Notes under the pieces: generated by a model
Databases searched by the model: none
Seen by the model: the letters and a program-made list of their open reading frames with translations, nothing else
What the model was told of the DNA's origin: nothing
Shown here: positions 60,901 to 64,000 of the stretch, one piece after another
Layout: each line of letters opens with the position of its first letter
How positions within the stretch are numbered: the stretch's first letter is position 1
Translations under genes and position numbers: made by a program
From: Alicyclobacillus sp. SP_1
Lineage (GTDB): Bacteria; Bacillota; Bacilli; Alicyclobacillales; Alicyclobacillaceae
Length of the DNA: 64,000 nucleotides
Assembly: GCF_024706985.1 (NCBI RefSeq)
Contig: NZ_JAMCCX010000009.1
Span: 1 to 64,000 of the forward strand
Direction: 5' to 3'

Positions 60901-61785
60901 ATGGACTTTCTCGATCGCCTCAATCGCTATCGAGCAGAGGAAGAGGCGCTGCGTTGGGACGGCACGTTTTCGGATTATCTTGACATCGTTCGAGAGCGAC
61001 CAACCGTCGCCAAGAGTGCACATGCGCGAATTTACGACATGATTGTCGCTGCTGGTATCGAACGGGATGCAGAAGACAAACCGGTTTATCAATTTTTCGA
61101 AAGAGAAATGTATGGGCTGAGTCAGACCTTGGAGCGACTCGTAGAAGAGTATTTTCATGCAGCCGCTCGGCGACTCGATGTGCGCAAGCGCATACTCCTG
61201 CTCATGGGCCCAGTCAGCGGTGGCAAATCGACCATCGTGACCATGTTGAAACGGGGCTTGGAGCGGTATACGCGCACGTCGGAAGGTGCGCTGTACGGAA
61301 TTAAAGGCTGCCCGATGCACGAAGAACCTCTGCATTTGATTCCAGCTCAACTGCGCGCGGAATTTGAACAAGAATATGGTTTGTTTGTGGAAGGTAACCT
61401 CTGTCCCAGTTGTCGGATGATACTAGAGAATGAATATGGTGGAGATATTCAGAAAGTACCCGTGGAGCGCGTGCTTTTGTCCGAAGAACATCGCATTGGC
61501 ATCGGCACCTTCAGCCCCTCAGACCCGAAGTCGCAAGACATTGCGGATTTGACGGGCAGCATCGACTTCTCCACCATTACCGAATATGGGTCGGAGAGTG
61601 ATCCACGTGCGTATCGGTTTGACGGGGAACTGAACAAAGCGAATCGCGGGTTGATGGAATTTCAGGAAATGCTAAAATGCGATGAAAAATTCTTGTGGAA
61701 TTTGCTCAGTTTAACGCAAGAAGGAAATTTCAAGGCCGGACGTTTTGCACTGATCTCTGCCGACGAGATGATTGTGGCGGGATGA
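60901..61785 (+). CDS. prkA: PrkA serine protein kinase, N-terminal part only (gene interrupted)
   Basis: 294 residues are read from ATG 60901, after ATAGGAGGA; complete PrkA proteins have about 630. The AAA+ part is normal up to the break: MGPVSGGKST (P-loop, 102-111), GALYGIKGCPMHEEPLHLIP, EGNLCPSC, TGSIDFSTITEYGSESDPRA, NRGLMEFQEMLKC and FKAGRFALISADEMIVA. It then ends G-stop. The C-terminal kinase-like half does not follow in any frame. A convergent large serine recombinase ends 30 bp further on. PrkA is made in the mother cell during sporulation in B. subtilis. The break looks like insertion of an element rather than a point mutation. Confidence 0.9.
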   Translation: MDFLDRLNRYRAEEEALRWDGTFSDYLDIVRERPTVAKSAHARIYDMIVAAGIERDAEDKPVYQFFEREMYGLSQTLERLVEEYFHAAARRLDVRKRILLLMGPVSGGKSTIVTMLKRGLERYTRTSEGALYGIKGCPMHEEPLHLIPAQLRAEFEQEYGLFVEGNLCPSCRMILENEYGGDIQKVPVERVLLSEEHRIGIGTFSPSDPKSQDIADLTGSIDFSTITEYGSESDPRAYRFDGELNKANRGLMEFQEMLKCDEKFLWNLLSLTQEGNFKAGRFALISADEMIVAG

Positions 61786-61815
61786 GTGCAAAATCGCCGG
61801 GAGCTCAGGTTTTTC

Positions 61816-63450
61816 TCACGTTGTCGATGCGGGAGTGTGCTGACTGGCCGCGGACCGCAGTTCGACATCCAGATGAAAAGTGCTCGGGCGATTTCGCCCG
61901 CCGCCTTTTTCGGTGACTTCCAGGCGGACACGATGAAGCACGGCGTGCAGGAGTCGGTTTTTTAAGGCAGCGTCGCCAAGGTGCCGATAAAGGTCGGCCA
62001 AACTGTCCATGTCAGGGATGATGCGAGGCGTCACGGCGAAGGAAGTTCGGACATCGTGATTGTGGTCATCCGGCGCGTCATGCTCAACTTTCGCTAAGTC
62101 GGCTTGAATCTTCTCTATTTCAGCGCTCGTGTCGCGGCGGACAAGCAGGTATTCTTCGCGGCTGAGAATGCCGTCCAGCAGAAGCGTTCGAGCTTCGGCC
62201 ATGCGCCGCTCCCATCGTGCGAGTTGCCGTTTTTGTCGATCCCGCTCCTCCTCCACGGAAACTTTCGCCACGCGTATCCTGGTCTCCTCCGCATTTTCGA
62301 CTGCTTCTCGAAACATACCGAGTGTCGCGAATTTCAGGTGGACGAGCACTTGGATGAGCTGGTCTTCGCAGGTTCGGTACTTGACGGACTGGCCGCACTG
62401 ACGGCAGTAGAGAAACTCCTTCGTGTACGTGGACCGCTCTCCGTTTTTGCGCAGATACGATGGCTGCGAAGACTGGCGTACCAGCGTTTGGTTGCAAGCA
62501 GCACAGGTGACGAGGCCAGCGAGTTCCCAACTGCGCCGCGCTCGCTCTGCCGCTTGGCGAGAACCTTGTCGAGCGTCACGGGTCGCCAGTCTGTTCTGTA
62601 CCAGCAACCAGATTTCGTCGTCCACGAGCGGCTGAAAAGCGTGCTCTACGACAATGCGTTCACCGCTCGGTCGCACGGTCACTCTCCCGTCCGTCTTGTT
62701 GCGGCGCGTTTTTCGGAAGACGAGTGTCCCGTGGTAGGCTGGATTTTCTAAAATCCGGCGAATGACGGTGGTTCTCCAGGTGGGTTTTCCGCGCGGAGAA
62801 AGGATGCCCTCTCCTGCCAGTCGACGAGAAATCGCCTGTACAGTCAGCTGTTCGTGCGCAAACCAGACGAATAGGTTTCGAACGACTGCCGCTTCCTCCT
62901 CATGCGGTACAAGAATCTGGAGATTCCGATGGTATCGGTAGCCGTAGGGAACACTGCCAGCCACCCATTTGCCACGACTCGCGCCGTCGTACTTTCCCTC
63001 CGTTAGTCGCCAAACCGTCATTTCGTATTCCTCGCGATTGAAGAAGAGAGAAAAGCGAATCATGCGGAGGTCGCTGAAATTAGCGGGATCGTACACCGCG
63101 TCCTTGGTAATGATGAAGATGCGGCGGTCTCGCAGAATGTCGTAAACGAGGCCCATGTCGCCATAACTGCCGCGGCCAAGGCGGGAGAGGTCTTTGCAGA
63201 CGATGGCCTGATACTTGTCCCCGAGTTGTGGCAAGAGGGCGCGAAAGACGGGACGATGCTGAATGCTGTCCCCCGATGCCACTTCTTCGGCGATGTCGTA
63301 GTCAAAGTTCTGATGCGCCAAAACTTCGCGAATCATCCACTCCCGTTGCTTCTGCAAGGTGTCTTCGCCGCGCCGTTCGGCCTCTTCATCTTCGCGCGAC
63401 CGGCGCAAGTAACAGATGGCCGTGCGGACGGGCAAGGCATTATTGGACAT
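61816..63450 (-). CDS. Large serine recombinase (SpoIVCA/phage-integrase type)
   Basis: The protein is 544 aa from the ATG at 63450, after GGGGGAAGGA. The resolvase domain has catalytic Ser18 in AICYLRRSRED, VASGDSIQHRP and KDLSRLGRGSYGDMG (R90, R93). The recombinase domain follows (GKWVAGSVPYGYRY, AISRRLAGEGILSPRGKPTW, RILENPAYHGTLVF). A zinc ribbon (C316-x2-C319...C349-x2-C352) precedes a coiled coil of ~60 residues with the usual SREEYLLVRR segment. The domains are complete, so it is probably active. Excision normally also needs a directionality factor, and none is recognised here. Confidence 0.93.
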   Translation of the reverse strand: MSNNALPVRTAICYLRRSREDEEAERRGEDTLQKQREWMIREVLAHQNFDYDIAEEVASGDSIQHRPVFRALLPQLGDKYQAIVCKDLSRLGRGSYGDMGLVYDILRDRRIFIITKDAVYDPANFSDLRMIRFSLFFNREEYEMTVWRLTEGKYDGASRGKWVAGSVPYGYRYHRNLQILVPHEEEAAVVRNLFVWFAHEQLTVQAISRRLAGEGILSPRGKPTWRTTVIRRILENPAYHGTLVFRKTRRNKTDGRVTVRPSGERIVVEHAFQPLVDDEIWLLVQNRLATRDARQGSRQAAERARRSWELAGLVTCAACNQTLVRQSSQPSYLRKNGERSTYTKEFLYCRQCGQSVKYRTCEDQLIQVLVHLKFATLGMFREAVENAEETRIRVAKVSVEEERDRQKRQLARWERRMAEARTLLLDGILSREEYLLVRRDTSAEIEKIQADLAKVEHDAPDDHNHDVRTSFAVTPRIIPDMDSLADLYRHLGDAALKNRLLHAVLHRVRLEVTEKGGGRNRPSTFHLDVELRSAASQHTPASTT

Positions 63451-63579
63451 GAGTCCTTCCCCCTCTCGGCGGTGCTCGTTTTTCTATATGTATTCCAACG
63501 AGTAGAGTTCATGAAGTTCGCGGTTCGGGCATGAAGGCGGCGTCAGTCGCGCTCACTGCCACACGTTGCATGAGAGATC

Positions 63580-63611
63580 AAAAAACACACTCTGCCCGCG
63601 GCAGAAGTGTG
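63580..63611 (-). terminator. Intrinsic terminator after the aminopeptidase gene
   Basis: Read on the minus strand, CACACTTCTGCC, a 3-nt loop and GGCAGAGTGTG form an 11-bp stem with one bulged base, followed by TTTTTT. It separates the aminopeptidase from the recombinase gene downstream. Confidence 0.85.
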
Positions 63612-63644: not shown

Positions 63645-64000
63645 TCAGATGACCCAGTTGCCCTTTCGGAAAATCGCGATGTCGCTACCGTCTTCCAAGG
63701 TACCATCGATGTCCAGTTCCGCCGAGCCAATCATAAAGTCGATGTGCGTGATGCTGTCATTGGCACCGTTTGCGACCTGCTCTTCTTCGGTCATGTCGCG
63801 ACCGCCCACGAGGCAGGTAGGGTAGGCTTTGCCGATAGCCAGATGACAAGACGCATTTTCGTCAAACAGCGTGCTGTAAAACAGTTGATTGAGATTGGAA
63901 ATCGGTGATTCATGAGGGACTAAAGCAACTTCTCCTAAATAGTGCGATCCGTCATCCGACTCGATGAGTTCCTTCAGCGTTTCGAGTCCGCTGGTGGCAT
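63645..64000 (-). CDS. M29-family aminopeptidase (AmpS-like), C-terminal part (5' end outside window)
   Basis: 118 residues are visible, ending at TGA 63647-63645. GLETLKELIESDDGSHYLGE, NQLFYSTLFDENASCHLAIG, KAYPTC and SITHIDFMIGSAELDI are the typical end of thermophilic M29 metallo-aminopeptidases (AmpS/PepS). They contain histidine, glutamate and aspartate metal ligands (FDENASCH, THIDF). The N-terminal two thirds lie beyond base 64000. The gene is followed by its own terminator. Confidence 0.88.
   Translation of the reverse strand, partial: ATSGLETLKELIESDDGSHYLGEVALVPHESPISNLNQLFYSTLFDENASCHLAIGKAYPTCLVGGRDMTEEEQVANGANDSITHIDFMIGSAELDIDGTLEDGSDIAIFRKGNWVI

Follow-up and report, generated by a model that had tools for sequence, protein, structure and literature searches.

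A small non-phage element bearing a large serine recombinase splits prkA in Alicyclobacillus sp. SP_1: a candidate sporulation gene-intervening element

Intervening elements have been reported in the sporulation genes sigK, spsM, spoVFB, spoVR, gerE and yabG, including vrin, which interrupts spoVR in Geobacillus thermoglucosidasius (PMC4191935, PMC5595907, PMC6957869, PMC10747680), and Alicyclobacillus acidoterrestris is known to have a phage integrated in sigK (PMC13141910). A preliminary description of the locus studied here had cited sigK, spsM, spoVFB and gerE as precedents, all of which are reported targets, as are spoVR and yabG. It knew of no report of prkA as a target, and our literature search likewise found neither prkA nor yhbH, with subscription papers (for example Abe et al. 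2013) outside its reach.

The prkA element resembles SPbeta, which occupies spsM in B. subtilis with the large serine recombinase (LSR) SprA and the directionality factor (RDF) SprB, in its recombinase family, sporulation-gene target, in-frame restoration and symmetric att sites. SprA reassembles spsM during sporulation. SPbeta, however, is a large prophage, whereas the prkA element spans 3.9 kb without phage genes, targets prkA and has a candidate RDF with no sequence similarity to the SprB of the SprA-SprB structures. Skin (sigK), vfbin (spoVFB), vrin (spoVR) and yin (yabG) are likewise LSR elements that split a sporulation gene with precise restoration predicted, and the target of vrin is the third gene of the prkA-yhbH-spoVR operon; these elements are described as phage-like, in contrast to the non-phage prkA element. 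The gin element (gerE, B. cereus ATCC 10987) is also non-phage and combines serine recombination with a small accessory factor (GirC/GirX), but it measures 28.6 kb and has three recombinases where the prkA element has one in 3.9 kb. Heterocyst interruption elements of cyanobacteria share the logic of excision in a terminal cell and the presence of several elements per gene or operon (Rivularia nifD carries four; PMC4874684), although in another phylum and developmental programme. Elements of this kind have precedents; apparently new are prkA as the target, a minimal form free of phage genes, and an operon holding several elements.

The window is the whole stretch of 64,000 nucleotides that was analysed, positions 1 to 64,000 of contig NZ_JAMCCX010000009.1 (C9 below). 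The features of the locus, some lying past the window end, are:

60901..61785, plus strand: prkA 5' part, 294 aa, stop after ...EMIVAG
61738..61793, plus strand: attL, the junction of the prkA 5' part and the element, with the 18-bp repeat at 61761-61778
61816..63450, minus strand: large serine recombinase, 544 aa, SprA-like (PF00239 and PF07508)
63483..63490, minus strand: CATATAGA, sigma-E/K -10-like motif upstream of the LSR gene
63590..63606, minus strand: terminator-like hairpin between the M29 and LSR genes, a pattern match only
63645..64000, extending to C9:64898, minus strand: 3' end of the M29 aminopeptidase gene (cargo)
C9:64917-65321, plus strand: Dabb-domain ORF
C9:65336-65632, plus strand: 98-aa ORF, candidate directionality factor
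C9:65698-66744, plus strand: prkA 3' part
C9:65709-65726: attR repeat

The PrkA 5' part, which ends in ...FALISADEMIVAG and a stop (...ISADEMIVAG), covers positions 2-279 of the 358 in the PF08298 AAA_PrkA profile. The 3' half, on the same contig and strand, holds a complete PF06798 domain and the end of PF08298 and is followed in order by yhbH and spoVR, and prkA is interrupted at codon 289 by an element of 3,948 bp. When we deleted this element in silico and joined the halves at the GA of codon 289, we obtained a frame of 632 codons with zero stops, identical at 564 of 632 positions (89%) to the PrkA of G001, the sole other same-genus genome in the comparison. Uninterrupted prkA is present in relatives, G001 among them.

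These results bear directly on the preliminary description, which had proposed a skin-like element from a normal PrkA running into an immediate stop, with a complete, convergent LSR gene ending 30 bp away, an arrangement that we confirm. It would have been refuted by the lack of a 3' half (simple truncation) or by an intact second copy that made this one a relic. The 3' half lies about 3.9 kb downstream, and the 99.98%-complete genome encodes no second PrkA. The two junctions, which it had suggested comparing for a common core, hold an 18-bp direct repeat at which joining restores the frame exactly, and alignment with an uninterrupted relative, also suggested, paired the joined frame with the intact G001 gene. 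The skin-like reading is supported by the restorable frame and the SprA-like recombinase, while excision here, and that it is confined to the mother cell, are only inferred. Beyond the reach of that description lay the absence of phage genes from the element, reuse of the site across Bacillota, and the hotspot character of the whole prkA-yhbH-spoVR operon. With a single sporulation gene split into parts that keep order and orientation, a short shared core whose joining restores the frame, and its own LSR adjoining an att site, the element has the structural features of a sporulation gene-intervening element; its directionality factor is a candidate only, and its release as a circle in the mother cell is inferred.

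One copy of the direct repeat CGACGAGATGATTGTGGC stands at each element end, at positions 61761 and 65709; no other 18-mer is repeated within the 10 kb, where approximately 0.0007 such pairs are expected by chance. The predicted central dinucleotide, GA, lies in attL at 61765-61766 and forms the first two bases of Glu codon 289. At the predicted circle junction, attP reads TTTTGCACTC-N7-CACAA-N5-GA-N5-TTGTG-N7-GAGTGCAAAA, and 18 of 27 positions pair about GA, compared with a mean of 6.8 (sd 2.3) for random arm pairs, none of which was as good (0/5000); attB is asymmetric. Such a strong predicted dyad fits what is expected of a large serine recombinase. The best centre falls at the same base in G036 (17), G016 (17), G050 (16) and L078 (19), with weaker symmetry in G014 and G009 (13 each). 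For G023 the score there is 12 (P 0.025), equalled at an alternative centre, and attP symmetry was not significant in G049 and G037, which have a different recombinase subgroup.

The LSR possesses Resolvase and Recombinase domains, zinc-ribbon cysteines and a coiled coil, and in the alignment S18 is invariant and the cysteines are conserved. The catalytic serine, these domains, zinc ribbon and coiled coil, together with an attP symmetric about its central dinucleotide, are the attributes of a SprA-type LSR, and all of them are present here. When profile A1 was compared with solved structures, SPbeta SprA (YokA) matched over its full length (E ~1e-146) and all others at 1e-10 or weaker; the predicted structure of the LSR, with a pTM of 0.37, was left out of fold searches. 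The recombinase tree places two further LSRs inside the prkA-recombinase group, one from B. siamensis, adjoining a 3' fragment whose translation looks spsM-like by eye, and one from Brevibacillus, so insertion into prkA is not strictly the property of one clade. The sigma-E/K -10-like motif CATAYA occurs at most 80 nt upstream of six of the seven tested LSRs of site A (prkA codon 289), against a shuffle mean of 0.5 (0/2000). A scan with the full sigma-E consensus was not significant for most LSRs (0.235 of shuffles for the gene of this element), and a sigma-70 promoter scan of the element found none.

Besides the LSR gene, the element (G+C 0.557 vs 0.53 in the flanks) carries genes for an M29 aminopeptidase and a Dabb-domain protein and the 98-aa ORF adjoining attR. 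The aminopeptidase has a paralogue elsewhere in the genome (44% identical), and the count of terminator-like hairpins is within chance. In the PHROGs comparison the LSR was the sole match, with no phage structural or replication genes found, and the element does not qualify as a prophage or phage-like element; judged by its sequence, it is small, non-phage and not a recognisable prophage. We aligned the small ORFs beside attR from six site-A elements and ran the resulting HMM over 17,348 ORF segments of the fetched loci. Unseeded members appeared at the same place in G066, G133, G241 and G147, another lay near the Brevibacillus recombinase, and the element end in G048 carries a further family member; the family was not found in G016, G049, G037 or G050. 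A conserved small ORF stands beside attR in 10 site-A elements having an attR junction. The 98-aa ORF showed nothing significant against PDB, Pfam or PHROGs and is probably the directionality factor, a role inferred rather than observed.

Splitting of prkA at codon 289 recurs. Among 49 genomes of the order that are at least 90% complete, 47 encode PrkA, and eight of these 47 have the gene split at this codon with related LSRs; in a phylum sample of 249 genomes, five besides the present one do so. Carriers include A. pomorum DSM 14955, A. contaminans DSM 17975 and A. tolerans BL-1, together with Ferroacidibacillus organovorans, Moorella stamsii, M. mulderi and Desulfocucumis palustris. The cargo varies among site-A elements, and IMG/VR contigs hold an LSR of the same kind beside the prkA 5' part. 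In G048, contig C83 runs through prkA codons 1-313 uninterrupted and contig C42 enters prkA sequence from an element end, the two having exactly 77 bp in common, starting at the core CGATGAAATG. Such a pair of junctions points to occupied and unoccupied sites within a single sample, which could reflect either excision or strain mixture; no site-A recombinase was found in the G048 assembly.

Several further arrangements were noted in passing. A prkA piece of about 40 codons (255-295) lies between two LSR genes in Moorella (including M. mulderi) and Desulfocucumis (L086 and L083; G147:C3:41738-41995), and in Ferroacidibacillus organovorans (L063:6919-13193) two different site-A LSRs sit within a single prkA insertion, an arrangement that would result if one element inserted beside another. 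The prkA element of G036 (L055:4835-8809) contains three consecutive genes that by eye resemble a gerA-type germination receptor operon. PrkA matches begin near codon 139 in G043 (L066), G135, L156 and L164, possibly marking a further insertion site near the P-loop, with contig ends not excluded. The present genome (G000) also has a second split sporulation gene, with the 5' and 3' halves of a SigK-like sigma factor on different contigs (C50:169320-169661 and C17:112874-113221; L113, L114), broken by eye at CIEN|EILMHLR, with the 3' half adjoining an LSR (L106:6186-7796); an intact SigK is on C39 and SigE on C28.

Codon 289 is one of several LSR sites in the prkA-yhbH-spoVR operon, the others being prkA near codon 508, yhbH near 217 and 336, and spoVR near 52 and at 263-274. 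The recombinase tree partitions by site, with the yhbH-336 (14 rows) and yhbH-217 (9 rows) recombinases each forming one side of a branch at 99-100% bootstrap. In A. tolerans BL-1 (G009:C96:77932-109294) four elements, each bringing an LSR of its own, cut the operon into five parts, and G049 (C6:93073-132829) has a five-piece operon with four LSR elements at the same four sites. By coordinate count, 27 of 43 LSR matches in 61 genomes fall in or beside this operon, a figure biased upward because the query recombinase comes from the operon. Two genomes, A. contaminans (G014) and A. pomorum (G023), have their sole thioredoxin reductase (trxB) match at E <= 1e-40 within the prkA element (L057, L056), while trxB lies outside prkA in all eight other genomes tested. 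TrxB is essential in B. subtilis. A sole trxB inside the element suggests, by inference, that only a terminal cell could afford to lose the element. We lean, with some reservation, towards viewing the operon as a multi-site docking region in many endospore-formers, in which each recombinase lineage owns one conserved codon, up to four independent mother-cell excisions rebuild three genes, and some elements, having captured the host's sole copy of a gene needed in vegetative cells, as with trxB in A. contaminans and A. pomorum, can no longer be dispensed with except in a doomed cell.

The analysis demonstrates the structure, a join that restores the gene precisely, att sites that look functional, an intact recombinase, selection on both halves (below) and recurrence. 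We read the locus as a small, non-phage sporulation gene-intervening element whose excision in the mother cell by its own LSR would rebuild prkA, and we give this reading a probability of roughly 0.83. Excision in this strain, its timing and the role of the small ORF are inferred, the timing from the target gene and precedent; no excised form was seen, the contig being continuous through the insertion. During sporulation, the LSR and directionality factor would recombine attL with attR at the GA dinucleotide, releasing the element as a circle and leaving the mother cell with prkA in one piece. The mother cell dies, and so the spore would retain the element; the host would have working prkA in the cell that needs it, and the element would hold a position that spore-formers conserve. 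In both B. subtilis and B. anthracis, prkA mutants have sporulation defects (PMC4415436, PMC13001217).

An insertion that inactivated prkA and left it to decay would also explain a 5' frame that stops at the insertion and an assembly holding only the split form. The dN values to G032, however, are 0.145 and 0.092 for the two halves, compared with 0.146 and 0.085 for the intact G001 gene (dS was mostly saturated). On these substitution rates, both halves are shown to be as conserved as an intact same-genus gene, with selection on each; a relic would have decayed. The recombinase, att sites and frame are moreover all intact and the configuration recurs in many lineages, which makes a dying gene highly improbable. 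That the halves are made separately and function without excision is scarcely credible: an open frame does run about 28 codons upstream of the 3' half from a TTG start, yet the break falls within the AAA domain (PF08298 is split at about position 275 of 358), the upstream extensions vary between genomes, and exact conservation of frame and att sites would be needless.

Harder to set aside, though still unlikely, is the reading of an ordinary integrative element, or the remains of a prophage, for which prkA is merely the attachment site; it would leave only rarely or under stress, with prkA off in most cells. SprA-type LSRs also serve phages, the IMG/VR contigs pair an LSR with prkA, relatives of PrkA, YhbH and SpoVR exist beyond spore-formers, and there are no timing data. 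This is nevertheless the sole PrkA copy of the genome, and selection on it has not relaxed; four occupied sites, as in A. tolerans and G049, would leave the operon dead for good, although its pieces are conserved; and the reported elements in spoVR, sigK, spsM, spoVFB and gerE excise in sporulation.

Split prkA, yhbH and spoVR genes resemble pseudogenes in annotation and are probably not pseudogenes. If mother-cell excision is correct, the assembly of sporulation genes by DNA excision would be much more common, and have many more layers, than the few published cases suggest, and a single conserved operon would offer a natural set of recombinase and att pairs with known sites. Three questions would then be open to testing: why terminal cells put up with such insertions, how multiple excisions are brought into step, and whether a housekeeping gene, once captured, fixes its element in place.
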